Of a stretch of DNA of 64,000 nt, positions 5,960 to 39,829 are shown piece by piece; position 1 is the first letter of the stretch; every line of letters starts with the position of its first letter. The position numbers were made by a program, and so were the translations under genes. The notes beneath the pieces were generated by a model. It saw only the letters and a list, made by a program, of their open reading frames with translations, was not told the DNA's origin and did not search any database. The stretch spans positions 20,211,761-20,275,760 of the forward strand of contig JAJEKV010000002.1 of assembly GCA_021234155.1 (NCBI GenBank). Direction: 5' to 3'. Source of the DNA: Isoetes taiwanensis (Eukaryota; Streptophyta; Lycopodiopsida; Isoetales; Isoetaceae).

Positions 5960-7830
5960 CTTGTTTTGAAATTGTTTTGCATTGTGTCGGAAGAAGCAAT
6001 TTCTTATTCTTGGTTCGGTTTTCACAGTTTTGGAGGTTCCAAAAAAAATTGAGGTGCAAGAAGATGTAGCCGAGGGAAAGAAAGCAGTGATTGAAGGAAA
6101 AAGCAAACTCACTATTCCTACGGTGATACAGGTTGAGGAAGCTGGCACTTCAAGTGTGCATGGTGACATTCCAGATTATGATGAGGAACTCGAGAGATTG
6201 AGAGAGCAGGCTAAGGCCACATCTGGAAAAGTAAAGGCAGCAGCAGAAAATGTGCTAAAAAGGCATAGAAGAAGAAAATAAAACCAGTAGAAACAGGTAA
6301 GAAAGCATTTTATTTCAAGGTACAACATTTGAGAAGTCCATGACATCCATGTTTACAGGTCCTAATCAAGAGGAATCTTCCGAGCGTGAAGATATAGAGC
6401 AGGATACTCTTGACTTTGTGGCAAATCTTGCTTCTAACATAGTAAAGGAGTTTGAAGTTCATGACAATGAGAAATCTGGAGAGGTTGAAGACGAGGATTC
6501 AGGATCTAAGAAGAATCTGGAAAGTGAGGAAACCGAAAAAGAAGGGAAGGAAATGGATACTGACTCCGAGAAAATAGTATCAGAACAGCATAAGAATGAT
6601 CTCTACAGGTAACTTGATCTACATATCTTACTTTTTATTTTACATTTAGTATCTAAGTTAAAGACTTTAAAATACTATGGATAGTAGTAGACGAATGTAG
6701 ATGAATTTGTGTAAATATACTGGTCTTTGAACCCAGACTGCAGCTCTGAATACAGGCCATATGATGCTTTGCTCAACCGAATGATGAAGCTGAAGAAGGC
6801 AAGGATCTTTCCTGGATCTTTGCCTGAAATGGAGTGTTATTTATTTGAACAAGATGTGCTGGACATGGATGTTGGAAAATTTTCCAACCGGCATGTGGAT
6901 ATATATATATCAGGTACTGCTCTTTGAACTTATTCATTTGTAAGTCAAGTTAGTAATTTCATCTTTTTCAACTTGTTATAGGTACCTGCAGCTCTATGTT
7001 CCTGCAAATAAGAAGGCCGACGTCTGGTTCTTCCCACTGGACAGCTTCATGGAATTTGCAGCATACTGCAAGGCAAGCGAAAAAGATAAATCTATGGCAG
7101 CCTCTGAGCGTAGAAGAGATATTGTAAAGGGAGGTCTTACAGGGATAAATTGGCTCAAGTGCAGATGGATTATGATTCCAATGCTATGTGCTGTTACTGA
7201 ACATCACACTTTGGCCATCTTCAACATGACCCTTACTAAGAGTAAGAACACCATAAATATTCAGATCTTCAATTCTGCCGAGGACATTGACGTTGACATG
7301 GTTACTTAAGAGGTATTTTGTATTTCACATCTCCTTTTATTAAAGTATATTGAGTAGATTGGATACCATGTAGCAGCTTTTTTCATTCATTTGCTACAGA
7401 GTTGATCTGGTCTTTTGCAGGGTCCATATCCTCACTATGGCACGTAGTTGTGTCGAGTGTCCCACTTTTCTTGAAGCATGGACAAAACCCTTCACCAGTT
7501 GTGAAGATTCATAGGTGTCCACAGCAGAAAGATGGGGATTCATGTGGCCTCTATGTTACAACTTATATGCAGAAGTTTGTAGACACAATCGTGTGTGGTA
7601 AAACTACCAATGTGAGTGTCTCATGCCTTTTGTCTTGCAAACAAATGGTTTCCAATACTTAGTATCTAAGTATGGTTGTCACATTTGCAGATTACCCGAA
7701 ACTGGTTCTTGCCAAAGTATGCGGAGGATCGTCGTGATGTTCTCATCCGAGCACTACTTCAGGAGTTAGACCACATTCACATCGCACCCGAAACCATTAG
7801 ACCACCTGGTACTAGTAGATGTGGCTGAGA
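5960..7830 (+). pseudogene. Ulp1-type SUMO-protease-like gene (peptidase family C48), several exons, probably damaged
   Basis: Five or six blocks with plausible splice sites can be followed: about 5,982-6,296 (charged, Lys/Glu-rich), 6,359-6,608 (acidic), 6,731-6,911, 6,983-7,312, 7,422-7,610 and 7,691-7,828. The fourth block contains W-I-M-I-P-M-L-C-A-V-T-E-H-H-T-L, where the histidine before T-L fits the catalytic His of C48 proteases. The fifth contains Q-Q-K-D-G-D-S-C-G-L-Y-V, the oxyanion Gln and catalytic Cys motif. The last block ends I-R-P-P-G-T-S-R-C-G then a stop. Between His and Cys the usual D-S is N-S (I-F-N-S-A-E-D). In-frame stops lie before two of the proposed donors (near 6,280 and 7,307), so the gene may be decayed or my boundaries may be wrong. 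Ulp1 domains often travel in plant DNA transposons. The FCP1-like phosphatase lies directly downstream on the same strand. Confidence 0.7.
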
Positions 7831-7966
7831 AAGCCTATCCCCATTGTCACTGCTAAGCATTATTTGATTATAAAATATACATTTTTTCATTGAATTTTAA
7901 TGAATAAAATTTCTTCTTATTCAACTCCACCATACTTTATTGATAAATTGCATGTTCTTTCATAGC

Positions 7967-8378
7967 AGGTGTACAGAAAAGGTTGAAGTATTTGATATCA
8001 ATAATGTTTTGGCAAAACATATACATAGGACTTTGGTAGCAGATGATCAGCTAGTTGGAAACTATGACATAATAGGCAAGAAAGTGTTGTTTTCAAGGCC
8101 CCACCTAGAAGAATTCCTCGAATTTATATTTGAACACTTTGAAATATGGTCACAACAGCTCCATGGAACCTATCAAGAGTAGTGGATAAAATCTTCGCAA
8201 TGACGCAGATAAGGGACTTAAGATTCACCTTTGATGGAAGCCACTGTTTGGAGCTGCCTTTCCGGATTGCAGCTTTTGAAGAGAAACCTTTGTATCTGAA
8301 GCCAATTGAGTTTATATACGAGAAGTATCCAGACAGAAATGAGAGCAACACACTAATAGTAGATGACTCCGAGTACAA
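7967..8378 (+). pseudogene. FCP1/SCP-like (HAD) phosphatase domain, 5' part, cut by the CACTA element
   Basis: After an acceptor (CATAGCAG) near 7,966 the frame reads V-E-V-F-D-I-N-N-V-L, then G-K-K-V-L-F-S-R-P-H-L-E-E-F-L-E-F and F-E-I-W. One frame later come T-T-A-P-W-N-L-S-R-V-V-D-K-I-F, K-P-L-Y-L-K-P-I-E-F and N-E-S-N-T-L-I-V-D-D-S-E-Y. This matches the order of the FCP1 homology domain of CTD-type phosphatases: first acidic motif, R-P-H-L-x-E-F-L, K-P-L-x-L-K, and the L-I-V-D-D-S metal-binding motif. The first acidic motif D-I-N-N lacks the usual second Asp, so catalysis is doubtful. A one-base frameshift lies near 8,145. The exon is interrupted after E-Y-(AA) by the transposon and continues at 20,827. 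It follows the Ulp1-like gene by about 140 bp and may belong to the same transcript. Confidence 0.75.
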
Positions 8379-8408
8379 CACAACAAGAGAATGGACATTT
8401 AGCGACGT
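8379..8408 (+). repeat. CACTA left terminal inverted repeat
   Basis: Thirty bases from CACAACAAGAGAATGG to ATTTAGCGACGT. They match the reverse complement of 20,797-20,826 at 27 of 30 positions; the differences are at positions 8, 14 and 17. The trinucleotide CAA immediately before is one copy of the target-site duplication. Confidence 0.92.
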
Positions 8409-8862
8409 GGGCTTGCGACGTCTAAGTCACGTGACGTCGCAAACCACGTGACCATGCGACGTCAATGCGACATCACGTCGCGGACACGTCGCATCGCGGC
8501 GTGTCTTCGCGGCGTCGACATCGTGACACGGCAAATCATCACGCCCGGTGGGCGTCGGCGTGGAGTGGGCGGCAGTGTGTCACACCGGTGGATGTCTGCG
8601 GCGTGGCGTCGCGTGCGCATCGCGTCGCACGGCGTGTGATTTAACAAATCATCACGCCCGGTGGACTTAGGCGCCAGTGGACGGCAAGTGTCACGCCGGA
8701 TGGATGTGCGGCGCGTGATGTCGCATGACGCCCGCGTGACATTACGTAGCGGATGACACGCCGATGCGTTTTTGCCACGTGTACTGCCAACGAGCATGTG
8801 ACCTGGCATGTGACGTCGCTATAACAAAATACGTCGCAAGCGACGTATACGCAACGTCAAAA
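8409..8862. repeat. Left subterminal repeat region of the CACTA element
   Basis: Dense short motifs built on GACGTC, GCGACGT, CACGTG and CATCGCG in both orientations, plus two near-copies of AAATCATCACGCCCGGTGG near 8,534 and 8,647. The block ends with CGTCGCTATAACAAAATACG, which recurs near 17,600. Such subterminal motif clusters are the expected transposase-binding regions of CACTA elements. Open frames here are by-products of the CG-rich composition. Confidence 0.75.
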
Positions 8863-8889
8863 ACTCATTTCTTAATTGGGTGAACAGGA

Positions 8890-9480
8890 GTGGTCTTCTG
8901 GCCACGGAACTTGGTCCCCAGGGCAATGTCGATGTTCTAAGTCCATTGGCAGAGCCATATCGCGGTTCCAGAGAGGGGGGATTGCCCGTCCGTCCCCGGG
9001 GCCTGGGGGAGGGAACGTGGGGCAGCGGCTTCGGGGATTTTAGGGTCCGTGCTCTGGCATCAACACCCCCACTCCACGACAAGACATGGCGCAAGATCCC
9101 GGCCGAATCTGACAAGGAGAGGGCCTCCGAAACGTAAACCCCGGGTGGAGTTGCCCGGTGTTCTAGAAGGGTTTGCGTTTTGGGGGCCGAAGCTTTCGCC
9201 TCTCGCCACGGAACTTGGTCTCGGGGGCAATGTCGACGTTTCGAGTCCATTGGCAGCCAAGCCAAATCGGTGATTCAGGAGAGGGGAGATCGCCCCTCCG
9301 GCCCCCGAGGCCGTGGGGAGAGGGGCAGCGGGCAGCGGGGGATTCCGGGGGGATTTAGGGTCCGTGCTCCGGCGTCAATACCCCCACTCCACGACAAAAC
9401 ACGGCGCAAGGTCCCGGCCATATCTGACAAGGAGAGGGCATCCGAAACAAAAACCCTGTGGGTTGCCAGGTTCTAGAAGG
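8890..9480. repeat. Two tandem 300-bp subunits at the left edge of the array
   Basis: The CAACACCCCCACTCC (or AATACCCCC) landmark occurs near 9,061 and 9,379, about 318 bp apart. The TCTAGAAGGGTTTGCGTTTT landmark occurs near 9,162 and 9,473. Only part of the 1.1-kb unit is repeated here, so the array grew at two scales. Confidence 0.75.
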
Positions 9481-12400
9481 GTTTGCGTTTTGGAGGCCGG
9501 GTCTTGGTCTGTTGCAGTTGGGACCTGACCGAGAAGCTGCCGCCGAGAATTCGGAGCAAGGGAAACTAACGGAACGGAGTTTGGACCTGTCCTCCTCTCG
9601 ATGTGGCAATTAGAAGTCGGGGGGCGCTTTTGCAGTGGCAAGACATTCATAAATTCGTAATTAATGCATTGTACGAAAATAAATTCTGATTTTTGCCATT
9701 TGGATTCCTAATTCATCTCCAGCACACAGCCCAATTTTGAAATTTTGAGGAGAAGGTCTAGGTCAAAGGGTTAGCATTAGAATGGTGGGCAGCCCGTTGC
9801 GGGGCAACCAAGCCGGCACCCTTCCCCAAGTCAAACGAGGCGGGACCTTGCGGGGATCCCTCACAAGAGGGGGAGAGTCAGGACCCGGGAGGCGGGATCC
9901 AAAAAGTTCCCGAGGCAGCCCTTCCTAGCGGTGCTCCCAGGGGGCCGTGACGCTAATGACCACCCTCCAGAACCCGGTTCCCCTATCCGTCGTTGGATCC
10001 TCCGTTCGGGGCCCCTCTTGGGGAAGGCCAAAAAGATTCGAGATCGGTCGGGGAGAACTTGTCAAATGGGGCGCCCTGAGTGGAAGCCTTTGTAGAAACC
10101 GAAGTGTTTTGTCGTTCGCACCGGGGAATCTCGGAATGGCAAATCGACCACCTGCCAAGTCGTCAGGAATGGCGAAATTACCCTAGGGAGCAAGTTACAA
10201 GGTCGGTTTTACAAAAGAAAGAAACACTCCGCCCTCCACACCCGGTATCCCGCATCCACATCCTAGGCCAATTGACTACGAGTATGATGGAAGTGAGCTA
10301 CTTGGCGCTTCTTGGAGGTCGGGTGGTCTTCAACCCACGGAACTTGCTCCCCGAGGGCAATGTCGATGTTACGAGTCCATTGCCGAGCCAAATCGTGAAT
10401 CCGGAGAGGGGAGGTTGCGTCTGTCCCGTCCCCGGGGCCTTGGGGGGAAGTCAGGCAAGCGGCTTCGAGGGGATTTTTAGGGTCCGTGCTCTGGCCAACA
10501 CCCCCACTCCACGTTAAGTCACGCGCGCAAGGTCCCTACCGAATCCGGGACAAGGAGAGGGCCTCCAAAACATAAACCCCGTGGGTTGCGAGGTTCTAGA
10601 AGGGTTTACGTTTTGGGGGCGAGACCCGCCCATTACACTTGGGACACGGCCAGAAGCCGCAGCCGAGAATCACGGAGCAAGGGAACCGGCGGAGTGAGGA
10701 GTTTGGGCCCCATCCTCCTCCCGATGTGGCAAGTAGAAGCTCGGGGGCTTTTGATTGGCAAGACATTCATAAATTCACAATTAATGCATTGTATGCGAAA
10801 ATAAATTCTGATTTTTGCCATTTGGATTCCTAATTCATCTCCATTTACTAATGCCCAATTTTGAAATTTTTAGGAGAAGGTCTAGGTCAAAGGGTTAGCA
10901 TTAGAGCGGTCTGGGGCAGCCCGTTCTTGGGGCGGCGCAGGCGGCACCCTTCCCCAAGTCAAGCGAGGCGGGGACCTTGCGGGGATCCCTCACAAGAGGG
11001 AGAGTCCAGGACCCCAAGAGGGATCCAATCCAAAAGGGAGGCTGACCCTTCTGGCGGCGCTCCCTGGGCCTGACGCTAATGACCACCCTCCCGGAGCCCG
11101 GTTCCCCTATCCGAGCCGTTGGATGCTCCGATTCGGGGGCCCCGCCGGGAAGGGCCAAAAGATTCCAGACGTCCGGGAGAACTTGTCAAACCGTCAGGGC
11201 CCCGAGGTCGGCCTTGTAGAAACCGTTGATGTTTTGTCGTTGGCACGCAGGAGGCTCGAATGGCAAATCGACCACGCCAAATCTAATGGGAATGGCGAAA
11301 TTACCCTAGGGAGCAAGTTACAAGGTCAGTTTTGCAAAAGAAAGAAACACTCACGCCATCCCACGGCCGGTATCGCATCCACATCTTAGGCCAATTGACT
11401 ACGAAAGCGATGGAAGTGAGCTACTTTGGCGCTTCTTGGAGGTCGGGTGGTCGCCGACCCGCGGAACTTGCTCCCAAAGGCAATGTCGGCGTTCCGAGTC
11501 CATTGGCGCAGCCAAATCGCTGAATCAGGAGAGGGGAGGTCGCCCTGCCCCGCCCCCGGGGGCCTTGGGAGAGGAAATTCGGGCAAGCGTACAGGGGGAT
11601 TTTAGGGTCCGTGCTCGGGCCTCAACACCCCCACTCCCGTCAAGTCACGGCAAGGTCCCGGCCGAACCGACAGGAGAGGGCCTCCAAACGTAAACCCCGT
11701 GGGTTGCGAGGTTCTAGAAGCGTTTCGTTTTGGGGCCGAGACTTGGTGCATTTGCACTTGGGACTGGCCCAGCCGCTTCGGTGAATACGGAACAAGGGGG
11801 AACTGGCGGAGCGGAGTTTGGGCTGTCCTCCTCCCGATGTGGCAAGTAGAAGTCTGGTAAGCTTTTGCATGTGGCAAGACATTCATAAATTCACAATTAA
11901 TGCATTGTATGAAAATAAATTACCGATTTTTTTGCCAAATTTTGGATTCCTAATTCATCTCCCGCACACTGACCCAATTTTCAAATTTTCAAGAGGGGGA
12001 GAAGGTCTAGGTCAAAGGGTTAGCATTAGAAGCGGCCGGGCAGCCCGATTCTGCGAGGGCAACCGAAATGGGCACCTTTCCCCCAAGTCAAACGAGGCGG
12101 GGACCTTGCAAGGATCCCTCACAAGAGGGGAGAGTCAGGACCCCAAGAGGCGGGATGGAAAAAAGTTCCCGAGGCAGCCCTTCCTCGGCAACGCTGCTCC
12201 CGGCCGCAGACGCTAATGACCACCCTCCACGAGCCCGGTTCCCCTATCGGGGATTTTAGGGTCCTACCGTTGGATGCTCGTTCGGGGTCCCCCCTTCAGG
12301 GAAGGCCCAAAAGATTCCGATCGGTCCGGGAGAACTTTGTCAAACGTGGGCGCCCCGAGGTCGGGCCTTGTAGAAACGCGCGTTGTTTTGTCGTTCGCAC

Positions 12401-14319
12401 TTTGGCAGGGAGGCTCTAATGGCAAACCACGACCGCGAAAATCGTTGACCGGGATTTAACGAGAAATTACCCTAGGGGAGCAAGTTACAAGGTCGGTTTT
12501 GCAAAAGAAAGAAAACACTCCACCCTCCACCCCAAGATATCCCGTGATCCACATCCCGCCCCGGGCCAATTGACTATGAGTGTGATGGAAGTGAGCTACT
12601 TTGGGCTGAGCTTCTTGGAGGTCGGGTGGTCTTTGTCGCCACGGGGGAACTTGCTCCCGTGGCAATCGCTGAATCCGGGAGGGGAAGTCGCCTGGCCCCG
12701 GCCCCCGTGGCCTTGGGGAGAGGAAATTCGGCAAGCGGCCTTCCCGGGGATTTTAGGGTCCGCGGCTCGCCTCAACACCCCCACTCCCACGCCAAGTCAC
12801 GGCGCAAGGTCCCGGGCCGAACCGACAAGGAGAGGGCCTCCAAAACGTAAACCCCGTGGGTTGCCGGTTCCAGAAGCGCCACGTTTTGGGGCCGAGACTT
12901 GGTCTGTTGCACTTGGGACCCGGCCGAGAAGCCGCGCAGAGAATACGGAACAAGGGGAACCGACCGGCGGAGTTTGGGCCCTGTCCTCCTCCGATGTGGC
13001 AAGTAGAAGTTGGGGGGGCTTTGCGGTGGCAAGACATTCATAAATTCTAATTAATGCATTGTACTACGAAAATAAATTCTGATTTTTTTGCCATTTGGAT
13101 TCCTAATTCATCTCCAAAGACACAGCCCAATTTTCGAAATTTTAGGAGAAGGTCTAAGTCAAAAGGTTAGCATTAGAAGCGGTTGGGGCAGCCCGCTGCG
13201 GTGGCAACCGAAGTTGGCACCCTTCCCCAAGTCAAACGAGGCGGGGGGGCCTTGCGAGGATCCCTCACAAGAGGGAGAGTCCCGGACCCCAAGAGGCGGG
13301 GATCCAAAAAGTCCCGAGGCACCCTTCCTCGGCGGCGTTCCTGGGGCAAGACGCTAATGACCACCCTCCCGGAGCCCGGTTCCCCTATCCGACCGTTGGA
13401 TGCTCCATTGTGGGCCCCTCTTGGGAAGGCCCAAAAGATTCCAGATCGGTCAGGGAGAACTTGTCAAAACAGCGGGGGCGCCCCGAGAATTCTGGGCCTT
13501 GTAGAAACTAGCAGTTGTTTTGTCGCTCGCACGGGAGGCCGGAATGGCAAATCGACCGCCAAATCGTCAGGAATGGCGTAAATTACCCTAGGGAGCAAGT
13601 TACAAGGTCGGTTTTGCAAAAGAAAGAAACACTCCACGCCCTCCACGACAAGATCCCGCGATCCACATCCTAGGCCAATTGACTACGCAGTGTGATGGAA
13701 GTGAGCTACTTTGGCGCTTCTTGGAGGTCAGGTGGTCTTCGGCCCACTCGAACTTGCTCCCCAAGGCAATGTCGACGTTTCGAGTCCATTGGCGAGAGCC
13801 AAATCGCTAATCCGGAGAGGGAAGGTTGCCCCGCCCGGATCCCCGTGGCCTTGGGGAGAGGAAAGAAGGGGGCAGCTTAGGGGGATTTTAGAGTCCGCGG
13901 CTCTCGGGCCAACACCCCCACTCCACGCCAAGTCACGGGCGCAAGGTCCCTACCGAACCGACAAGGGAGAGGGCCTCCAAAACATAAACCCCGGGTTGCT
14001 GTGTTCTAGAAGGGTTTACGCTTTGGGGCCGAGACTTGGTCTCGCTGCACTTGGGACCTGGCCAAAAAGCCGCAGCCGGCCAGAATATGGAGCAAGGGGA
14101 ACCGACGAGCGGAGTTTGGGTTTGCCCCTCCTCCCGATGTGGCAAGTAGAAGCTCTGGGGGCTTTTGCTGGCAAGACATTCATAAATTGTAATTAATGCA
14201 TTGTACACGAAAATAAATTCTGATTTTTGCCAACTGGATTCCTAATTCATCTCCAGCACACAACCCAATTTTCGGAATTTTTAGGAGAAGGTCTAGGTCA
14301 AAGGGTTAGCTAAGGTCAA

Positions 14320-14650
14320 AGGAATGGAGTTTGTGGGATCTTGTACTTGGGGTTGACCTTTTCACGGGGGACGTTATACTTGGTCTAAGATTGCATTGAG
14401 AATATAAGCATCATAACTATTAGAATGAAGATAAATGATTACGTAAAAGCATCATAACTACTAGAATGAAGATAAATGATTGAGAAAAGCAAAAAGACTC
14501 TGCGGGTTGGGGGTTTAGATTTGGTTGCTTGTGATGATGGTTGTGTTTCAAAGATCAAGGCATATGGATAGAGAGAATGCCCTTGTTCAACGGATTTGCC
14601 CCTAAAGCTATTTGACATGGATGGCATAATTAACTTGTAATGAATCAATT
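14320..14650. other. Non-repeat interruption within the tandem array
   Basis: About 330 bp that does not resemble the array unit. It contains a direct duplication of a roughly 40-bp AT-rich sequence (GCATCATAACTA.TAGAATGA) near 14,409 and 14,448. It separates the regular 1.1-kb units on the left from the run of 300-bp subunits on the right. Confidence 0.6.
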
Positions 14651-15705
14651 CGGGGCGTCAACACCCCACTCCATGTCACGACACCCCCACTCCATAAATC
14701 AATTGGGTCCCCGCTCAAGGCAACAACACCCCCACTCCACGCCAAGACCGCAAGGTCCGGCCAAAATCGACAAGGAGAGGGCCCAAACGTAAACCCCGCG
14801 GAGTTGCCGTGTTCTAGAAGGGTTTTCGTTTTGGGGCCGTTTTGGTCTTCGGCCGCCAGGTAACTTGGTCTCAGAGGGCAATGTCGACGTTTCGAGTCCA
14901 TTGGCAGAGCCAAATCCGCTGTTCGAGAGGGAGGTCGCCCGGCCCATCCCTCGTGGCCTTAGGGGAGGAAATTGGGGCAAGCAGCTTAGGGGATTTTAGG
15001 GTCCGTGCTCAAGCGTCAACACCCCCACTCCCACGCCAAGTCATGGTGCAAGGTCCTCACCAAATCGGACAAGAGAGGGCCTCCAAACGTAAACCCCGCG
15101 GAGTTGTCGTTCTAGAAGGGTTTGCGTTTTGGGGGCCGAAGTTTTGGTCTTCCGCCACTTAATTTTTGGTCCCTAAGGCAATGTCGACGTTTCGAGTCCA
15201 TTGGCGAGCCAAATCGCTGTTCCAGAGGGAGGTCGCCTCGTCCGGCCCCGGGGCCTTAGGGAGAGGAAATTCGGGGCAAGCAACTTCGGGGGATTTTAGG
15301 GTCCGCGGTTTCTAGCATCAACACCCCACTCCACGCCAAGTCACGGCGCCAAGGTCCCGGCCAAATCGACAAGGAGAGGGCCTACTAAACGTAAACCCCG
15401 TGAGTTGTAGAGGGGTTCTAGAAGGGTTTGCGTTTTGGGGCCGAAGTTTGTCTTCTGGCCACGTAACTTGGTCCCTAGGGCAATGTCGACGTTTCGAGTC
15501 CATTGGCAGAGCCAAATTACATTGGGGAGAGGGGAGGTCGCCCGTCCGGCCCCCTCGGGGCCTTGGGGAGAGGAAATTCGGGGCAAGCGGCCTAGGGGAT
15601 TTTAGGGTCTCTGCCTCAAGGCCAACACCCCCACTCCACGACAAGACACTGGCTAAAGGTCCCTACTGAATCTAACAAGGAGAGGGTCTCCGAAATGTAA
15701 ACCCC
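14650..15705. repeat. Run of tandem 300-bp subunits
   Basis: CAACACCCCCACTCC landmarks lie near 14,725, 15,019, 15,319 and 15,625, about 300 bp apart, with a truncated pair near 14,665-14,695. Each subunit runs through GTTCTAGAAGGGTTT, GCAATGTCGACGTTTCGAGT and GGGATTTTAGGGTCC. This explains the one long spacing (1.7 kb) between 1.1-kb unit landmarks. Confidence 0.8.
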
Positions 15706-17597: not shown

Positions 17598-17715
17598 CAG
17601 ACGTCGCTATAACAAAATACGTCGCAGACACGTCGCGTGCGACGTAAAACCGTATAATACGTTTTTGAATTAACGTCGCATGCGACTTCGCGTCGCGAGA
17701 TGCGACGTCTACAAA
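17598..17715. repeat. Internal copy of a CACTA subterminal block
   Basis: CGTCGCTATAACAAAATACG, followed by several GACGTC/GCGACG motifs, closely resembles the inner edge of the left subterminal region at about 8,815-8,850. Together the two copies flank the tandem array. It may mark an older element end or a duplicated subterminal segment, and hints that the array lies between two subterminal blocks. Confidence 0.65.
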
Positions 17716-17894
17716 TTTAATAACAGACCACTGGCCAGCTTTTTCCGCCCGTTCCTAGGCTTCGGCGTGGGCGACTTTTTAGGCGATTTAAAGCTAAGCG
17801 AGCGCCCACTTGCAAGAACTATTTTTAAGGTTAGTATATCATGATTTTTAGATTGAATAGGTCTTTGGATTGAATAGGTCTTTGGATCGAATAG

Positions 17895-19340: not shown

Positions 19341-19394
19341 CCTAGTCATAGTCTTTTTATTTTAATATTGTGTTGATCTATCGATTTATATCAA

Positions 19395-27830: not shown

Positions 27831-27839
27831 AGTACCATT

Positions 27840-28605: not shown

Positions 28606-28609
28606 TTTA

Positions 28610-30750
28610 AGGTCTAGTCCCTTGTCCGACCCTTGAATCTTCAATTCAAGTACCATGCCCATTTGACACCATAACGACAGTTTGACTCTGTCATTATGTT
28701 GAAAAAGTAAAAAACTACCCCCTTTGCCTTGTTCCAAAAGTAGAGATGATAGAACCGACACCAAACAATAAAATTGGTAGTTCTCGTAAATGTCTTGCAA
28801 GTTAAACTTTTCTCGCAATATGCGGGCGAGGGATTGTCGATAGCTCATAGAACTTGATCCCCAGAGTAGCAGGTTCAAATCCTACAGAGCGTGATTTTGA
28901 TAATAAAATTGAATTTGATGTGTTTTTTCCTTTTCCATAATCAAATTTTGAACTCAATTAGATTCATTGATAAAAACAGCAAAATTTATTGATCAATTTG
29001 ACCTCCCTAAGAAGGGAGGCAGCATGAATAGGGGCTGAAATAGGAGTGGGTCCTTTCATAGCATCAGGCAACCATACATGAAGTGGAGATTGCACGGATT
29101 TAGCTACTGAACTTGGGAATGGGGAGAGAGCACAGAAGGTAGCAAAAAATAAACAGCCTCGTTATGAACTAGTTGATTTCAAGAGTCTTAAAGTTTCATA
29201 TAAAGCCGTTATTTTTCAAAGTAATGCAAGCAATTATTGTTGCATGGTAGTTTTGCTTTAAATCAAGCTTATACTTATTTAAAAACATTTAAATTGTGGT
29301 TTTTATGTTTTCTTTTTGTACAGCATGCCGAGCAGCATGCACCTTACAGCTGCATTGTTATCTCCGTGGAGATGAACTGGCACAACTCACAGAACACATT
29401 TCACTAGAAGCCTACAAGGCAAAGTAGATTAGAAGAGAATGAGCTTAATCCCTTTGCAAGGGAGCAAGAATGTGATGATTGGAGTGGTTTAGAATATTTT
29501 CATGGATGAGGTAGATCATGTTATAGTAGCACCATGTTGTTTAGAAATTAAAGGCTTGATTATTGAGTACAGAAGATGCAAGTTCCACTTCCGGTGCCAA
29601 AAACTATTTGCAAATATAGCATCTATATTACATAGTATGTTTATCTCAAATTCGGCTTTAGAGGCAAAATAGAGCTATGGAGGAGAGGCTAGCATTTGAG
29701 AACTGTTCAAAAGCTTGGTAACCACATCAAACAACAGAGCATTCAACCAATAATTTATTCATTCCCCGCTTATAGCTTTTGTTGACTGCCCTCTTAACTC
29801 TCTCCATTTTGAGTTTTGTTTTATAGGCATGCACCCGTGGTCATATCTATATTGCCTTCACATAGCAAGTTATGTTAAAAGCATAGTATTATTTTGTTGC
29901 AATCACAAATTATTTCTTAAGGTTTGTGTAATCACATGCCCTTACACTTGGGAAAAATAATGGAGGCTAAATGTTGCATTGTTTTATTTTGTTGTAATCA
30001 CAAATTATTTCTTAAGGTTCGTGCAATCACATGCCCTTACACTTGGCAAAAATAATGGATGCTAAATGTTGTGTTGAGACTCTTACATAGCCGATATTCA
30101 CTATCTGATGACCAATTATGGCTTCAATTATATTGCATTGGCATCTACTTACTATCGCACACTATAGACAATAATCATATTATATCACTACCTAAGTGTT
30201 GTGGAGAATGAACCAATAAACGTAGAGGCCAGCAACGCTGGGCACCGTAACTAGTTACAATTTAGAATCATGTTCTAAAAGTAGTGTGAAACTAGATTGT
30301 GTAGTTGGAATCATTAGTTAATACAAAAAACTATGCTCAAAGTCAGTAGTGACTTCAAGGATTCAAACAAGTGTATAAAAAAAGCAACAAGATAAACTAG
30401 CATATTAGACTACTTAAAAGCATAGTAAAACAGCATGAGCCAAAAACCATATCACACTTGCAAAATCGAACATGGTTTTTGAACTAACCTTAAAAGCTTG
30501 GAAGCACTAAAACTATGCTAAAAAAATATATATGATAATGATAACTACTATGTAAAATCATCTTAAATTATAATATTGAAAATGTACGCTCAAAAACCAC
30601 TGCCTAAATCAGTAATAATTCTAAGTAACTAGTATAAGATATAAAATTAGTATAAGAGTTATGATCAAACTAGCATTGATTTCATCAAACCATGGTTGAC
30701 ATGTAGTTTTTATTGAGATTACGAATTGCATGTAATAAAAACCACTCTTA
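28610..30750. other. Spacer without a recognisable gene
   Basis: Contains a tRNA T-arm-like motif (AGCAGGTTCAAATCCTAC near 28,867) without a cloverleaf, and a tandem duplication described separately. Nothing else stands out. Confidence 0.5.
29889..30072. repeat. Tandem duplication, unit about 96 bp
   Basis: ATTTTGTTGCAATCACAAAT through CACATGCCCTTACACTTGG and GCTAAATGTTG occurs at 29,889-29,977 and again at 29,984-30,072 with only a few differences. Confidence 0.85.
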
Positions 30751-30752
30751 TG

Positions 30753-31504
30753 CTAGTTTCCATCCTGATTATGAATATAAGTTAATTTTTGGGGGCCTTG
30801 TGTCTGGTCATTGTTCCAATGCTCGGACTGAACCTCCCTGAGTGGTTGCAAAGTATAGTTCTCTGCAAAGTCCATTACTGACAAAAAAGAATCATCCCTC
30901 AAATTTTGCATTGATTTCTTGAATTGTTTTCTCTGCCAACTTGCTGAAAAGTTGTGAATAGTGAACTTTGTAAGGTGATGAAACATCTTGTCAAGCAATG
31001 TACCTGGACTCCCGCTTTCAGTAACAAGCTTCAGCCTCCTTGAAGTGCCAGCTTTGGAAGGTTCGTTCACGTACCTGTAAACTTGCCATTCAATGTTCTC
31101 ATTCTGCGACTCTTTCTCCTTAAGACAGATTTGAATATATTCAGTGCCACAGCTCTGGCACTCTCCCTTGACACAGTCCAAACTATGCCACTCTTCGCCT
31201 TCATTGTCACATACCGTAGCTCTCCACATAGCGCTGACGTTTGAAATGTTTTAGAAGGAGCTTGGCAGATGCCATTGTTCTCATCTGCTGTATAAACACC
31301 ACAAGAACATGTATAATTGGCACGAAATTTGCTCCTTAGAATGCTAAATGCTTTTTTGTATAGCTCAACTTGTTCATGCTTCACGCAACAGCATGTGTTC
31401 CTCTATTTCAACCTTCTCACACACGTAGGCTTAAGCAGCTCGAACATTCTGACACTAATCTTCACTTCAGGATGTTCATCTTTGAACATCTCATACAATT
31501 CACT
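30753..31504 (-). pseudogene. Transposase-like gene, middle exon (MDFAENY / EVQSEHW motifs)
   Basis: An acceptor (CCTTGCAG) at about 31,505 opens the frame S-E-L-Y-E-M-F-K-D-E-H-P. It reads on to L-L-K-P-T-C-V-R-R-L-K, a TAG stop near 31,409, and R-N-T-C-C-C-V-K-H-E-Q. After a frame change near 31,240 come C-D-N-E-G, C-V-K-G-E-C-Q-S-C-G, a basic region with W-Q-R-K-Q-F-K-K, and V-M-D-F-A-E-N-Y-T-L-Q-P followed by R-E-V-Q-S-E-H-W. Cys pairs suggest zinc binding. The D in M-D-F-A-E-N-Y is a candidate first catalytic acidic residue. It joins exon 1 in phase zero across the gypsy-bearing intron. One nonsense codon and one frameshift show that it is dead. Confidence 0.65.
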
Positions 31505-31509
31505 CTGCA

Positions 31510-32114
31510 AGGAAAAAAATGGCATGTATAAGTAAAACATAAATTAAAACTATTTACGAATTCAAAGATGTTGCAGACATTGCATTAGTTCTATGGCAGT
31601 CAGGCCATGATTTGATATACATTCAACTACTATAACACAATATCGTACATATTATTTACATGATATGTATAAATATGTAGAAAATGTACTCCAACACATT
31701 CCAGATGTACATACAAAACTCAATATGTAATCAGGTCACACACAGTGTCACTGTGTTACAGATGTATGTATTCAATACTTTTCTTATGGAGGGAAGTACA
31801 TTTAAATACTTTTATGTATTACCTTATCTTTCAACAGTATCATGAGTTCAGCAAAGTTCAGAGTGCATGTACTTGGGAACTACAAAAACCGAGACTATAA
31901 AAACACAGCCTGACTTTCAACACATTTTCTGCCTTCTGCCACATTGGATATAATTGGAAGTACATTTTTCCTGTTAAACAAAGCTCATTCAGTGCCTCTA
32001 AATGTAAAAATATAATTATTGTAGTTGGATGTACTTAAATGTATATCAGATACATCCCTTGCATGGAATGCAAATAGGATTACTAAACTTATCCAGGGTG
32101 CACAGAGCTTCTAT
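31510..32114. other. Left remainder of intron 1 of the transposase-like gene
   Basis: AT-rich, with several GTACAT-containing short motifs, no coding signal. It ends at the target-site duplication TGAGC (32,115-32,119) of the gypsy element. Confidence 0.6.
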
Positions 32115-32119
32115 TGAGC

Positions 32120-32469
32120 TGTTAGAGCCTGAACTCTAACCTTGCAAGAAGGATGAAAAACCCACAATCCAAGCTCAATCTATCAGATCAAGGCAATGCA
32201 CAAGACAAAGAATCATCATCTCCATAGCTAGATCAAGCAAAAATGCTCTCTCCATACATCGTCCCTCTCTGTTCTTCTCTCTCTGCTCAGATAATACAAT
32301 GCTCATGATGGCTCCACAATGCATACGTGCAAATATCCTGCACGCGTGCATGCGCCTATATCACTCTATATACGGTATATGATGAGTGTGGTGAGTGGTG
32401 ACTGGTGTGGTGAGAGGTGACGAGTGTGGTGAGTGGTGAATGGTGTGGTGAGTGGTGACGACCCCAACA
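32120..32469 (-). repeat. 3' LTR of the gypsy element
   Basis: 350 bp, TG..CA ends, direct copy of 38,792-39,141. A TGGTGA/GTGAGTGGTGAC microsatellite lies at about 32,385-32,460. Immediately inside is GTGGCGACCACAGTGGG rather than an obvious polypurine tract. Confidence 0.9.
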
Positions 32470-32862
32470 GTGGCGACCACAGTGGGAAAATGTGCCACTC
32501 CGTGGCGGAGAACCCACAACAAAACAAACTCATATGGTCCTTGGGACATGTCCCCAAATGACACATTTACACCCTCCTCAAATCCAAATGACTAATACAA
32601 ACAAACTGGTCCAAAATGACAGTGACGAAACAGAGTCTTTGTAACTGTGGCAAACTTTGAAAGCTGATATCTTGAGTTCCAGAACTCCGTTTGACCTGCA
32701 CCAAAGCTCGTTGGATTCGTATCGCCGAAACGCATCTTTTGATGTAGGATAGATGAAGTATTATGGAACTGTCACCACCTGGTTTTACAGAAAAACGACC
32801 AGCTGTAACCCAAAAATTCTCCACAATTCTCTGTAATTGGAGCTATACCAAATCTGAATCCC

Positions 32863-34472
32863 TTAGAAAAGTACTTCTCTTTCAAAATAAGGCCTGAGAT
32901 CCTTGCCATTTCTGGGATTAGGCAACAATTCCCCTTCTGGAGTCATCAAATAGAAAGCCCCACCTGGTACCTCTTTATCAATCAGAAATGGGCCTTCCCA
33001 TGGGCTTTGAAATTTGGATAGATGCTTCTTAGTGGTCCTGCACAATACCAATTGCACTTCCTCAAATGGATTGACAACCTGTAACTTATCTTTGATAAGC
33101 TTTACTTTCTGTTTATGCCTCATATTGAAGTCTGCCGCTTCTTGTCTCATCTCTTGCAATTGCAGCAAATCATCCATCCTATTATGCACTTGATTTGCAG
33201 TTGGAACTTCTCCTAAATTCTCATAATAAGGTAACTCCACAAATGAACACAAAGGAATGTCCAAATGAATAGGCATCACAGCTTGCACTCCATAAACCAA
33301 TTCAAATGGTGTAAATCATGTAGCCAACTTGTAAGTACACCTGAAACTCCATAAGGCACCTGTCAAGGCTTCATGCCAATTTCTTTGATTATCCTTCATT
33401 GTTTTGGCCAAGATAGCTTTCAGAATTTTGCTAGTAGACTCAGCTTGCCCATTACCCTGTGGATAATAAGCAGAAGCTTGCACATGTTGAACACCAATCT
33501 TTTCTGTTAACTGAGCTACTACTTTCCCCATAAAATGAGTTCCCCAATCAGACAAAAGAATGGTTGGAACACCAAACCGAGAAATCAAATTGTGATAAAG
33601 AAAGCTTACTGTGGTATTTTACAGTAGCATGCTTTCTTTGGAATTGCTTCTACCCACTTCGTAAACATACATGTGGCTGCCAGGATATACTTATGACCTT
33701 TGGAAGATGGAGGATTGATAGGCCCAATGTAATCCAATCCCCACATATGAAACGGACCAACACTCAAAATAGGATGGAATGGCATATTATTGTGGCCTGT
33801 CAATTGTTTATGCCTTTGACACTTCTCACATTTGCTAACAAAGTCTCTAGTATCCTTGTAAAGAGTTGGCCAATAATATCCCCAATGAAGGATCTTCCTA
33901 GCTGTGGTTCTGGCTGCAAAATGCCCCTGACAATCATGTGCTTGCTGCAACAAATCATGAGTTTGTTGACCAGCAACACACCTTAATAAGAGACCTTCCA
34001 TAGTCCTCTTATAAAGAATAGCTTCATGCACCACATAACCAGCTGCTTGTACTCTAAGAGCATGCTTTTGTTGCTTTGAAAATGATGAAGGATAAGTCTG
34101 ATCTTGTAAATACCTGTATATATTGGCATACCAAAGATCCACGGTCTCAATGAACTCCTGTAGTACTCCATTATCCTGAAATGCTACTTGCTGGTCTGTT
34201 TCCTCTTCTATTTCAGCAACACTACTCAAATAGGAACTTGGATTATGAGCTCCTTGAGCCATCTTAACATACTTCAACTCAAATTCTTGTATGATAAGAG
34301 CCCATCTTGTAAACTTAGGATCTTGGACAGTCTTGTTGTAAATGCATGGCAATGGGTTCACATCCATATGAATGTAAACATACTGTACATTTGCTGAATT
34401 CCATTGTGAAGGAAGAAGATAATGTCTAAATTTATTCAAGGCCCATTTCAATGCCAATCCAAGATGCTCCAC
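32863..34472 (-). pseudogene. Gypsy integrase and end of RNase H region
   Basis: From 34,472 downward the frame gives an RNase H-like segment, then the integrase zinc finger (H-D-C-Q-G-H-F ... C-E-K-C-Q-R-H-K). The core follows with G-L-D-Y-I-G-P-I, L-L-S-D-W-G-T-H-F, and Y-Y-P-Q-G-N-G-Q-A-E-S-T. The C-terminal part contains S-P-W-E-G-P-F-L-I, a GPY/F-like module. The core is split over frames ending near 33,606, 33,588-33,316 and 33,300-32,863. Thus at least two frame breaks interrupt it. Catalytic D, D and E positions remain visible. Confidence 0.85.
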
Positions 34473-34478
34473 GTGAGT

Positions 34479-35637
34479 CTATTTCTGCTCTTGTGGAGTT
34501 AACAACCTGCTAGCATAGTAATTGACATCATAATGCTTTTGCTGATTTTTTTGACATAGTGTGACAGCCAAAGCTTGCTCCCAAACTGTAAAGAATAAAT
34601 GAAATGGCTCACTCATTCTTGGAGGAATCAGCAAAGTTCTCTCTTTCAATTGTCCAAGGCACCATTCAAATGCTTCTTGAGCATCCTTCTTCCATCTAAA
34701 ATCCTGCCCTTGCTTCATACAATCCACAATGGGTTACTTTAGCAAAATTGTGCAAATACCTCCTACTAAAACTGAGTTGGCCATATAAGCTTCTCACTTG
34801 TGATACATTTGTAGGTGGTTTGACCTTCTCCAAGGCTGCAATCTTACCATAATCCACTTGTAATCCCTTTTCTGAAACATAATTGCCCAATAGTTTTCCT
34901 CCTCTAGTACACTTAGCAGGATTCAAACTTATACCATACAATCGGCATCTTTCAAGAACCTTTCTGAGATGATCCAAGTGATCCCGTCTTAGATTAGAAA
35001 ATACTGTTAAGTCATCTATAAAGAATCTCAAGAAGTCTAAAATATCATGAAAAGCATATGTCATAGCTCGCTGAAATGTGGCTGGAGCATTTGTGAGGCC
35101 AAAAGGTAATACTTTATAAGCATAGATGCCAAAAGGTGTTCGAAAAGCCGTTATTGCTTGATGTGGTGGATAGATTTGGATCTGATTATATCCTGAGTAA
35201 CCATCCAAGAAAGAATAGGCTTGATTTCCTGCAACAATATCCAACAAAGTGTCTATGAACGGTGTAGGAAAATGATCTCTTTTGGTAGCTTTGTTGAGAT
35301 CCCTGTAATCAATGCATACTCGGATTGAGTTATTTGGCTTTCTCACTGGTACAATAGAACTGATCCAATCTGAATTTGGCACTGGTACAATAAATCCCGC
35401 CTCTAAAAGCTTCATGACTTCAACCTTTACTTGCTCCTCTATGGCTGGACTCATTCTCCTTTGAGCTTGTTGGACTGGTTTTGATTCTTGTTTCAAATCA
35501 ATGGTATGAACCACAACCTCTGGTGGAATGCCTTTCAATTCTTTGTAATTTCTTGCCAAAACATCCCTGAATTCTCTTAACAAAGATATCAAATCACGTT
35601 CCTCCTCTTGAGTAAGATTGCCTCCAATAGTAACCAA
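34479..35637 (-). pseudogene. Gypsy reverse transcriptase and RNase H
   Basis: The frame from 35,637 contains V-C-I-D-Y-R-D-L-N-K-A-T, P-F-G-L-T-N-A-P-A-T-F-Q and F-F-I-D-D-L-T-V-F, the Y/F-x-D-D catalytic box with Phe in the first position. The RNase H continuation (W-K-K-D-A-Q-E-A-F-E ... Y-Y-A-S-R-L-L-T-P-Q-E) is in another frame at 34,479-34,727. It is separated by a frame break near 34,700-34,727. Order and motifs are those of plant Ty3/gypsy pol. Confidence 0.88.
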
Positions 35638-35689
35638 TTCTTCTTGATTGCCTTGAGAAATATTAATGTTCTTGACTGAATGTGGTGAC

Positions 35690-35875
35690 TGTAATGAAGG
35701 TGGTGAGTGTGGTGACGAATGTGGTGAATGTGGTGATTGTGGTGAATGTGGTGACAGTGATGAATGTGGTGCGTGTGATGGTGTGGTATTTGTAATGGAT
35801 GTGGTGGATGTGATGATTGTGATGAATTTGGTGCATGTGGTGGACGTGTGATGATTGTGGTGAATATGGACTGAT
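35690..35875. repeat. GTGGTGAAT-type microsatellite inside the gypsy element
   Basis: Imperfect repeats of TGTGGTGA(A/C)TG, about 185 bp, lying between the protease-side region and the start of the reverse transcriptase frame. The LTRs contain a related GTGGTGAGTGGTGA microsatellite, so the motif appears both in the LTRs and internally. Confidence 0.8.
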
Positions 35876-36414
35876 CTGATTTACCTCATCCTCCGGAAAT
35901 GCGATGCCACCAAGCTGCTTTTTCCTTGTATAGTGGGCTGATTTCTGTTTACCCCATCCATGCTTGATGTCAAAATCAGCATCTCTACTTGATCTTGATC
36001 AATACCTTGCTGAAATAAAGTCTCAGCAATGGGTCTTTGAATGGACTCCTCCTGCATGTTTACAAGAGTCTCTTGTAACTCACCTTCACCAATACTTTCA
36101 AGTCTTTGGATATACTTGTCTCGCAACTTGCTGTTGTAAGTGACATATTTCTGAAATTTGGGTACCTCTGAACCACTTGTACAAAGTCTTATCTTCCCTG
36201 TCACCCACTTCCAAGACATGAAAACAACTAAGACCTTGCTGCCACGACACCATAGCATTTTTCTTTCTTTGATTTCTAAGCTGCGGGCTGCTCAAAGAAG
36301 GATTGCAAAGAAAGGTACCTTTTCTCGATTTGAGGATGATCTATAGTAACCTTGTGTTCTCCTTGAAAGATGTTCATTTCACGCTTCCTCCATGAAGTCT
36401 CAAACTTGCGGCAT

Positions 36415-37370
36415 CTAACCATATGCGACTCGGCAACAAAGTATAAGTTTCAGCATGCACGCTCTCTGCGGAAATTTCAAAACCATGAAATCCAAGATTG
36501 CTTCCACCTCATAGACCTTGCATAAAACATTTCTTATGACTCCCATAGGCTGCACCTTCATTTGATTGAATGCTTTGAGCATCATAGTTGTCGGTTCCAT
36601 CATTTTCAATCCAACTTGAAGCATTATGTGGTAAGGCATTACATTCACTCCTTCGCGGTATCTATGTTGGCCTCTTTGATTAGATATCCATTAATACTCA
36701 CATCACAAAGAAATGGCCCAGGATCCTTGGATTGCCGGGCTGGTGGCTCCATTCTCCTCTTGTCAGTATCATTTGATATGATTTGTTGGACTGAAATTTT
36801 TGATTTTGTTCTTCCCCCTAACTCTTGCAACAAATTTGGAGAATAATGCATCAATTGCTCAAGAGTAAGTGTAACTTTAGTGGCCAAAACTTGGCTGATC
36901 ACATCATCTTCATTTTGAATTTCCTCATCCACCATAGGAGGCATCACTATGGGCTGATTTTCTTCTATAGACCTAAACTGTTCTAGGCAAAGCACATTGA
37001 ATTGCACCTTCTTAGGTGCTGACACCTTCAAAGCTTGTTCCTTCAAAGCCTTTGGACAAGAGGTCTTAGTCTTCTCCGCAATTGGCACTACTCTTGGTTC
37101 TTGAACCATCTTTTGTGATCTTGTAACTGCATTTACTTCTCCAATCTCTTCTTCTTGCTGAAATGGATCATGCTCCACCTCAACAAATCCACAATTTACT
37201 ACTGATTTTGCCTTCTCTTGCTTCTTAAGCTCCTCAATAAGAGCCTTAACTTGAGGATTATCAATGTACTTTGCATCTTGAATGCGAACATCATTATTAG
37301 GAAGAGGTACTGATTCAAACACTTGCTGCTGTTGGTTGCTCATTCTGGTTTCCCATGGATTTTCCAACAA
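36415..37370 (-). pseudogene. Gypsy linker and retropepsin-like protease, active site broken
   Basis: A charged linker (from 37,370) leads to D-V-S-I-N-G-Y-L-I-K and I-D-T-A-K-E then a stop at about 36,645. In the next frame N-V-M-P-Y continues (36,648-36,415). Retropepsins normally have D-T/S-G-A followed by x-N-x-M-P. Here the bases encoding the Gly-Ala part are disturbed and the frame shifts within the active site, so this copy lacks a functional protease. Confidence 0.7.
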
Positions 37371-37495
37371 GTAGTCTCATCATGCTTGAATTTATCACAT
37401 AACTTGCAATATAAATGAGCCTTACTTGGATACCATCCCTGTTTTGGCTGCACCATTGGTGTGGAACCCATTGGAACTTGTTGGGCAATTGGAGC

Positions 37496-38601
37496 TTATG
37501 GCATCATTGGAACTTGTGGTATGATAGGTGCTGCTTGTATTGGTTGAATAGGAATAGATGGTGCTTGTTGCATAACAGCAAATACCGGATTGGCCCTCTC
37601 AAAGAATCTCTTCTCCCTACATTCTTGATCATTATGGCCCTTGATTTGGCATCTTGAGCAGAATTTCAGCAATCTACATGTAGTATCAGAATGCCCAATA
37701 GACCCACAATACTCACAAGTAATAAACTGCACCTCCCTTGGCTTCTCACCAATTGTAAGCTTAGAAATCTTGGCTGCAATATCCTCTATTTTATGCTCTG
37801 GAGCAGCAACTTCATGAATGTATCCCAGCTTATCTTCAGCCTTGAGAGCATACTTTTGTGCCTCTAGCAATGTTGTAGGCTGTTTCGCCTTCACCTTATG
37901 AGCAATAGCTCGTTTCAGCCCCTTCACATACCATTGGATATCCATTTCATCATTCCTTGCCATCTTCCAATGAACCACGGCTTTGAGAACCGCAATATAC
38001 CTCTGATTATACTCTCTAATTGATTCATCTTCCTTTTGTGTGAAATTGGTCCACCTTTCCATAGTCTTATCCTTACCATGAACTTCTTGATAATTAGCAA
38101 TGAAAGCTTCCTTTAATTCCTGATATGTCATGGTATCTGGCTGAGTTTGGCCCATTCCTCCACCGAATCTTGCAAAGAACTATGAAACCAAAGCAAGTAA
38201 TCAGCAGCCGGTAACTTACACTGCTGGCGATACCTCTCAAACTTCACAATATGCTTCAAAGGATCCCGATCCACCAGATCATCAAACTTTGGAATCCCTA
38301 TTGTCTGAAAACCCCATACCATAGGTGGTAATACAGCCATCTCTGCCTCTTCTTGGGTTTCTTGAAATTGGAAAAATGAAATTGAATCTCCCTTCAATTT
38401 GAAAAACGAAATTGGATTACCTTCTAGATCGGTAAATGGAATCAAAACCTCCTGGATCTGAGAACTAGACCCTAGATCTGCTCCCAAATCTGAAAACGAA
38501 ATTGAATCTTGATGCAATTTTGAGCCCAAAGATTGACTCACCGGTCCCCTTCTTGTTACGATAGAGCTTGGTGGGATATCCTTCTTACTTCCCTTGGGCA
38601 T
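37496..38601 (-). pseudogene. Gypsy gag with two zinc knuckles
   Basis: The frame from 38,601 starts M-P-K-G-S-K-K-D and includes I-P-K-F-D-D-L and F-E-R-Y-R-Q-Q-C. After a frame change near 38,140 it continues T-Y-Q-E-L-K-E-A-F-I, R-E-Y-N-Q-R-Y and two C-x2-C-x4-H-x4-C knuckles (C-E-Y-C-G-S-I-G-H-S-D-T-T-C and C-S-R-C-Q-I-K-G-H-N-D-Q-E-C). Gag forms the particle and binds element RNA. One frameshift separates the capsid-like part from its beginning. Confidence 0.85.
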
Positions 38602-38771
38602 AAAACTATGCTCCCCTTGTCAAATTTTACTCCACAAATCAATTACGGCAAAATCCCCTTCACACAAGAAATTGCTCCTTTCACAATGGTGTCGTTCTTT
38701 ACCGACGATCACCAATACCAATGGTAACAACTCTTTTTTCAATGGAAATTCTTGCCGATCAATGGTCTGTC

Positions 38772-38791
38772 GAGCACCGTGGTCGCCAAAT
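38772..38791 (-). other. Probable primer-binding site of the gypsy element
   Basis: Read on the minus strand, directly inside the 5' LTR, the sequence is ATTTGGCGACCACGGTGC. T-T-G-G-C-G-A-C-C-A-C starts two bases inside the LTR edge, the usual place for the tRNA primer site. The tRNA is not assigned. An inverted near-copy (GTGGCGACCACAGTGGG, plus strand) lies inside the other LTR. Confidence 0.55.
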
Positions 38792-39141
38792 TGTTAGAGC
38801 CTGAACTCTAACCTTGCAAGAAGGATGAAAAACCCACAATCCAAGCTCAATCTATCAGATCAAGGCAATGCACAAGACAAAGAATCATCATCTCCATAGC
38901 TAGATCAAGCAAAAATGCTCTCTCCATACACCGTCCCTCTCTGTTCTTCTCTCTCTGCTCAGATAATACAATGCTCATGATGGCTCCACAATGCATACGT
39001 GCAAATATCCTGCACGCGTGTATGCGCCTATATCACTCTATATACGGTATATGATGAGTGTGGTGAGTGGTGACTGGTATGGTGAGAGGTGACGAGTGTG
39101 GTGAGTGGTGAATGGTGTGGTGAGTGGTGACGACCCCAACA
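38792..39141 (-). repeat. 5' LTR of the gypsy element
   Basis: 350 bp, direct copy of 32,120-32,469 with about three base differences seen by eye; bordered outside by the TGAGC target duplication. Confidence 0.9.
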
Positions 39142-39181
39142 TGAGCTTGCAACAAAGAGGATTAAAAGACTTAAAACTGAC

Positions 39182-39829
39182 CTGGGGCATGTCCAAAAAC
39201 TGGATTCGAAGTGTCCTTTTCTTCCTGACATCCCTGTACTTTGAAGAAGTTTTGGTGTGGGTTAACCAAAAATCATTTACCAAGTGTTTGGTTGATTCCG
39301 GGAGCATGTCTGCCCTGGGTTGCCTTCCTGCCAGTGCCCACATGTTAGCACCTGATAATGACATGCGCTTTCTTCTAATTGCAACTTTTGTAAGGTTTCT
39401 TGCTTGCAATTGAAGAATTCTGGAGGCTACTCCTTTTTGCTTGAGTCCCATTTCACCAACAATCGTTGATAACAGGGAATGCTTAACTGCTAATTTATCA
39501 TTGTTATTTGCTTGTTTCACTTCCTGCAGACCTTCACAGATATTTTGTAGCATAGTATCCTTCATAATTGCTTGCGCTGGATTTCCAATGGCAGATTCAA
39601 AAAAGAAGTGCAGCCTTTCATCCCGAACAGTTTTCACTGCTAAAGCTCTCTTTTGCACAAGACGTAAATCTTGAACCTGATCATATATAAATTTAACAAT
39701 TTCATCAATCTTACGCTTCATTTTCTTTGTCATATTCCCGATATTGCAATCTTCTTGCGCCATTTCCGTTCCTTCGTTGTTGATCATGGTTCTTGCGTAG
39801 TTTAAGGTTAGCTGGAGGAATTCTGGCAA
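39182..39829 (-). pseudogene. Transposase-like gene, first exon
   Basis: The frame starts M-P-E-F-L-Q-L (39,829) or M-A-Q-E-D-C (39,762). It contains a coiled-coil-like charged part, then A-V-K-H-S-L-L-S-T-I-V-G-E-M-G-L, I-R-R-K-R-M-S-L-S and V-N-D-F-W-L-T-H-T-K-T-S-S-K-Y-R-D-V, and ends F-L-D-M-P-Q at a CAG|GTCAGT donor at about 39,182. Splicing in phase zero to 31,504 continues S-E-L-Y-E-M-F-K. The exon itself is open over its whole length. It is probably the N-terminal, possibly DNA-binding, part of the same protein whose motifs lie at 30.8-31.5 and 21.5-22.7 kb. Confidence 0.6.

Follow-up and report, generated by a model that had tools for sequence, protein, structure and literature searches.

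A decayed copy of a probable two-strand DNA transposon in the quillwort Isoetes taiwanensis, with RING-like, Ulp1 and NIF domains facing a transposase-like gene

In the Vandal group of Mutator-like elements (MULEs) of Arabidopsis, VANC genes lead to hypomethylation of related copies, relieving their silencing, and KIU are VANC genes with an Ulp1 domain of unknown precise function (PMC13317346; this and the other papers cited are drawn on in extract). VANC/KIU is the nearest anatomical parallel that we found for the plus-strand module of an element in Isoetes taiwanensis. The element lies in a stretch of 64,000 nucleotides, hereafter the window (assembly GCA_021234155.1, contig JAJEKV010000002.1, positions 20,211,761 to 20,275,760 of the forward strand), where an Ulp1-type protease and an FCP1-like (NIF) domain on the plus strand face a transposase-like gene on the minus strand. 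Like the Vandal MULEs it has a second gene with an Ulp1 domain beside the transposase (PMC13317346), but MULE target duplications are 7-12 bp (PMC10741241), compared with 4 bp here, and the extract of PMC13317346 makes no mention of a NIF domain.

Three other groups share features with the element. Sola transposons have 4-bp target duplications, inverted repeats, a length of mostly 2-9 kb and a DDD transposase (PMC10741241); Sola1 is listed from Physcomitrella (PMC9033089) and Sola repeats have been reported in the fern Ceratopteris (PMC6890710). The quillwort element is alike in its 4-bp duplications (16/19 copies), inverted repeats (23 bp) and length (~9 kb), its core may be of the DDD type, and it is unlike Sola in its RING-like, Ulp1 and NIF module, which is not mentioned for Sola in the extract of PMC10741241. 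Ginger1 also makes 4-bp duplications and has Ulp1 domains in some families, but its duplications are CCGG/CCGT, its ends TGTNR, its integrase gypsy-like and its Ulp1 fused to the transposase (PMC2836005). Kolobok is a transposase lineage with varied accessory enzymes, those of KolobokP on the complementary strand, while the TTAA duplications and C/DxxH motif that belong to Kolobok (PMC9587614) were not seen here.

The feature in the window is likely to be a decayed copy of a two-strand quillwort DNA transposon that carries a constrained accessory module. An earlier note, made from the letters of the window, had proposed one old DNA transposon with an Ulp1 and FCP1-like unit facing a transposase-like gene, and the recurrence, shared ends and target duplications described below largely uphold that proposal.

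Recurrence, gene order and common ends

Three protein queries, taken from an exon of the minus-strand gene (30756-31250), an exon of NIF (7904-8179) and exon 1 of Ulp1 (6944-7306), were compared with the species' own assembly (1,658,258,908 bases in 1110 contigs; the window is C1018:20211761-20275760). Each block had at least 150 scored places in the genome. Co-occurrence was computed on the best ~150 places per block, and the counts are lower bounds as only the best candidates were scored. Of the 150 Ulp1 places, 95 had a NIF place within 3 kb, in every case on the strand of Ulp1 and downstream of it, at a median distance of 881 bases. Of the 150 NIF places, 30 had the minus-strand protein within 3 kb, always downstream on the opposite strand, that is, tail to tail; the chance expectation for pairs within 3 kb, 150 places against 150, is ~0.08. 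Both partners were found within 15 kb at 24/150 minus-strand places, and a few block pairs in other orientations were seen at a range of up to 20 kb. The order of the unit genome-wide is Ulp1 followed by NIF on one strand, with the minus-strand gene facing them, and the three blocks do recur together at many loci, as the earlier note had anticipated.

Ten copies, taken as 10-kb pieces, could be aligned to one another over long stretches. In four of them (L003, L004, L005 and L011) both ends fell within the piece, 8.6-8.9 kb apart, giving a unit of ~9 kb. Both ends start with GGGTAAAAGAAAGCTAGGGTGTC or a close variant, a terminal inverted repeat of 23 bp, and differing palindromes lie just internal to it. 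The exact 23-mer had 316 matches in the genome and its reversed control none. Among the 100 of these 316 places that were listed, there were 27 convergent neighbour pairs less than 35 kb apart, 15 of them separated by 8.5-9.5 kb.

Inspection by eye of the four copies gave 4-bp duplications of TAGA, TCAA, TAAA and CCAC, the right end of L004 being altered. Flanks were taken for 19 of the 27 pairs, and a 4-bp duplication was present in 16 of these copies, compared with 2/342 in a mismatched-pair control. The duplicated words were variable and none of the 16 was TTAA, CCGG or CCGT. When the flanks of L005 were joined with a single TAAA, an open frame of 250 amino acids was restored across the junction, the left part of which matched DDE_Tnp_1_7 (9.6e-25; piggyBac-like). 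The shared ends, terminal repeats and target duplications expected from aligning such loci were thus all recovered. The L005 copy sits inside a piggyBac-like transposase gene (1-444 and beyond 9044 of the piece), so the genome also has piggyBac-like elements.

Related lineages are present in the same genome. The transposase cores of L013-L018 are 55-58% identical to those of family 1, and L014, L016 and L017 have a terminal repeat in which 2-3 of the 23 bases depart from the family-1 sequence. A tblastn comparison gave, on the strand facing the transposase, RING-like matches in L013 and L014, Ulp1 matches in L013, L014, L017 and L018, and NIF matches in L014 and L017. Three further loci, L064-L066, were picked by hand from the lower-scoring NIF matches, and in all three a transposase relative faces NIF. 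L064 has the ends GGGCAAAAGTATGCTGGTGGGTA and GGGTAAAAGTATGTTGGTGGGTA with ATCA duplicated, and a RING-like finger that scores below the cut-off. The transposase of the L064-L066 lineage was found within 3 kb of 14/101 lower-scoring NIF places, all tail to tail (0.05 expected), and within 3 kb of 0/49 high-scoring NIF places.

These results bear on whether the blocks are host genes, an Ulp1 and a phosphatase of the C-terminal domain (CTD) type placed by chance beside a transposon to which they do not belong. Both gene types exist in plants, and the high-scoring NIF places are host-like, several being clustered on C1018 and one, L062, keeping a DLD motif; but order and orientation are fixed at many places, common ends and duplications enclose the whole unit and none of the 49 high-scoring NIF places is near the transposase, which makes chance proximity extremely improbable.

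Three side observations concern these loci. Many high-scoring NIF genes are clustered at 22.9-23.0 and 26.0-26.8 Mb of C1018, where CTD-phosphatase-like genes of the host may have expanded. In L014, two convergent terminal-repeat-like sequences ~320 bases apart (8134-8455, as fetched) lie in or beside a family-2 element and are perhaps a small non-autonomous derivative. In L015, a NIF domain with 31% identity to family 1 (8540-9178, reverse-complemented coordinates) has the opposite orientation to the usual one and is perhaps part of a neighbouring element.

The transposase-like gene and the plus-strand module

The minus-strand protein is represented by open frames of 629 amino acids in L016 and 590 in L015, in which a Cys-rich region and a core are joined by a long C-terminal part; the N-terminal region is separately encoded. 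Across five cores, two from family 1 (L007 and L011) and three more distant (L015, L016 and L018), D11, D95 and D136 are invariant, with a spacing of D-83-D-40-D (second gap 40-41 residues in the five); in the L018 protein they are D170, D254 and D295, and the later Glu is E308. E149 is also invariant in all five, so the third acid may be D136 (DDD) or E149 (DDE). The first acid motif was not found by pattern in L064-L066, yet in each of these loci a tblastn match reaches or crosses the region concerned. A crude Chou-Fasman average over the cores predicts the order strand (D1), two strands, helix, strand (D2), strand and helix (D3), which matches the RNase H order. From where it lies in the element, how abundant it is and which motifs it carries, we infer that the minus-strand protein is the transposase, probably of the RNase H type.

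Several known groups were considered and set aside. CACTA elements have CAC ends and 2-3 bp duplications; here the ends are GGG and the duplications 4 bp. For Ginger1, the duplications CCGG or CCGT/ACGG were absent (0/16), the ends are GGGTAAAAG and not TGTNR, and no rve match was obtained in the three transposases scanned. Kolobok was rejected on TTAA (0/16 duplications); the C/DxxH motif between the second and third acids, which belongs to Kolobok, hAT, P, MuDR and Dada, is absent between D95 and D136 in 5/5 cores. A MULE does not fit a duplication of 4 bp rather than 7-12 bp, and no MULE-type Pfam match was found.

The element is probably related to Sola, whose description (PMC10741241) it resembles in target duplications of 4 bp, in size and in having inverted repeats; its three invariant Asp may correspond to the DDD triad. 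A less probable alternative is that the element stands outside every named superfamily, with a transposase from an RNase H lineage not described before. This would fit the lack of a Pfam family over the cut-off, the occurrence of 4-bp duplications in groups other than Sola, and the searches of viral_contigs and genome_contigs, collections without plants, in which no relative of the transposase was confirmed. It fits less well with inverted repeats, an element size and a length of duplication as in Sola (PMC10741241), with a core that may be DDD as in that group, and with the occurrence of Sola in Physcomitrella (PMC9033089) and, by report, in a fern (PMC6890710). Among the papers listed by text searches in a single open-access library, none describes this element in its title or abstract; the term Sola is absent from the I. 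sinensis and I. taiwanensis papers, and both Ulp1 and Sola are absent from PMC12730594.

In fuller copies the plus strand encodes a coiled coil, then a RING-like finger, Ulp1 and NIF (PF03031, 5.3e-18 in L003), so that the unit seen across copies is a ~9-kb repeat with inverted-repeat ends and 4-bp duplications in which this module lies tail to tail with the transposase-like gene. Ratios of non-synonymous to synonymous change (dN/dS, Nei-Gojobori) were computed for 10 copies, over all pairs and then against the diverged copy L009; the copies are related and the pairs are not independent. The in-frame values, all pairs first and against L009 second, were 0.28 and 0.17 for the coil and RING segment, 0.37 and 0.23 for Ulp1 block 1, 0.34 and 0.30 for Ulp1 block 2, and 0.41 and 0.36 for NIF. 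The corresponding values for the transposase were 0.23 and 0.12 (core), 0.34 and 0.24 (N-terminal) and 0.40 and 0.23 (C-terminal). Shifted-frame controls over the RING, Ulp1, NIF and transposase segments gave 0.58-1.62, compared with 0.12-0.41 in frame. The transposase gene and the module have both evolved under protein-level constraint. The module is coding, as one gene or several, with the exception of a linker (L003:2371-2799) that was at first assumed to be a coding exon and was dropped on its dN/dS.

The same ratios bear on whether the module is passenger cargo, made up of pieces of host genes that were picked up a single time and serve no function. Gene capture is common in plant transposons (PMC13317346), but the dN/dS of the RING-like, Ulp1 and NIF segments is well under that of shifted frames, and parts of the module are common to lineages whose transposase cores are 55-58% identical; we regard this origin as improbable.

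The motifs of the two enzyme-like domains have fared differently. The NIF/FCP1-type phosphatase motif is DxDx(T/V). It reads DIN in L003, L015 and L066, DLN in L064 and L065, DLQ in L013 and EIQ in L017; the second catalytic Asp is replaced in all seven aligned element NIF domains, while the host protein L062 keeps DLD. A DDS motif has also been lost from the NIF of L013 and L017. The catalytic residues of Ulp1 proteases are His, Asp/Asn, Gln and Cys. The Gln and Cys motif is kept in 4/4 aligned lineages, and the His and Asn regions are seen in the two longer sequences only; by exact pattern, Gln/Cys was found in eight and His in seven of the 10 family-1 copies. Retention of the Ulp1 motif and loss of the second NIF Asp suggest that Ulp1 may be an active protease and that the NIF domain may have a different or binding-only role.

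Some observations weigh against a transposon with a defined and constrained module. Three of the 19 copies lack a 4-bp duplication, and the minus-strand protein has no Pfam family over the cut-off and no convincing PDB match, weak sub-cut-off names having been set aside. The RING-like finger is below the Pfam cut-off (best E 2.2e-5). In tblastn comparisons the module is not universal: L016 has no cargo match, L018 no NIF match and L064-L066 no Ulp1 match. Finally, the linker has a dN/dS of 0.64-0.95 in all three frames, that is, no coding signal, so the plus-strand segments may belong to more than one gene.

Layout of the window copy

The transposon remains form a single copy at 5647-40100, delimited by blastn against intact copies, with three inserts inside and ~1.8 kb lost from the left. 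The earlier note had placed the element at 5960-39829; it is present there, with limits slightly off. The aligned parts are 5647-8378, ~20824-22593, 30803-32109 and 39144-40102, at 87-96% identity. The right terminal inverted repeat, on the minus strand at 40078-40100, is an exact match (shuffles expect 0). The 10 kb that precede the window contain no match to L003, L004 or L011.

On the plus strand, the Ulp1-type protease occupies two exon blocks. The first (6944-7306) contains the catalytic His region EHHTLAIF and has no Pfam match; the second (7354-7659) contains the Gln/Cys motif CPQQKDGDSCGLY and matches Pfam Peptidase_C48 just below the cut-off (19.6 bits against 20.7; E 8.6e-4). The first part of the NIF/FCP1-like domain follows at 7904-8378, with the motif FDINNVL, and the second part at 20827-21097, its end being approximate as mapped onto L003. 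The window piece 8143-8448 alone has no Pfam match, and it is the homologous domain of L003 that is recognised as NIF. The two parts are separated by insert 1 (8379-20826), a CACTA-like element with ends CACAACA...TGTTGTG and a CAA duplication; L003 is unbroken at this point.

The transposase-like gene runs on the minus strand. Its C-terminal domain, which has relatives in the family, is at 21474-22070, and acid motifs 2 and 3 (WSDGCAAQFK and HGKREHDG) are at 22192-22593, with the frame broken inside. Insert 2 (~22595-30802), an element with ends CACAAGG...CCTTGTG and no clear duplication, separates these from the Cys-rich region and acid motif 1 (MDFAENY...EVQSEHW) at 30803-32119, such that the core of this copy is interrupted by an insert and a frameshift. 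Insert 3 (32120-39141, minus strand) is a gypsy-type long terminal repeat element with TGAGC duplicated and RVT_1 at 1.1e-29; its long terminal repeats, 32120-32419 and 38792-39091, are 99% identical. The N-terminal region lies beyond it at 39142-39892. The setting aside of CACTA and gypsy insertions in the earlier note was in substance correct, on the ends and CAA of insert 1 and the nature of insert 3.

Within the CACTA-like insert, GC-rich degenerate repeats with spacings of ~0.3 and 1.1 kb occupy 8800-17500, and a low-complexity stretch at 17861-18741 is open in several frames, with a Phe/Ser-rich product. Outside the element, reverse transcriptase frames flank its right end at 40941-43407 (minus strand) and 44432-45629 (plus strand), one with RVT_1 below the cut-off. 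We take these to be like long interspersed nuclear elements and the fragments further right to be copia-like. A short tandem array with a period of 29-30 bases is present at 61560-61764.

Possible role and significance of the module

In the mechanism that we propose, the transposase would bind the terminal repeats and palindromes and act by cut-and-paste with a 4-bp stagger. The product of the module may be an accessory protein acting against silencing by the host or on the state of its chromatin. Ulp1 would then strip off tags of the SUMO type, and the NIF domain, given its altered motif, would bind a phospho-protein rather than efficiently dephosphorylating it; the tail of RNA polymerase II is one such candidate. 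An anti-silencing or chromatin-conditioning role, like that of the Ulp1-bearing VANC/KIU, is tentatively favoured because VANC/KIU is the nearest parallel in anatomy. Almost as likely is a direct role in transposition, for example through processing or stabilising of the transposase or target choice. Such a role has been suggested for the Ulp1 domains of transposons (PMC2836005), and it is consistent with a constraint equal to that of the transposase gene and with the tail-to-tail linkage; a lineage without detectable Ulp1 argues against it. A bolder and rather doubtful proposal is that of a long-lived plant transposon group, possibly outside the named superfamilies, with its own post-translational toolkit (a RING-like finger, a SUMO-type protease and a NIF phospho-reader) by which it would overcome silencing or tie its transposition to RNA polymerase II.

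Transposons with Ulp1 domains are already known, but text searches of one open-access library found no report of a constrained phosphatase-like domain in the second unit of a transposon. The module would be a case, outside the MULE/VANC system, of transposons acting on host SUMO-type and phospho-signalling. For annotation, some of the Isoetes gene models named 'CTD phosphatase-like' and 'Ulp1' may be transposon genes.

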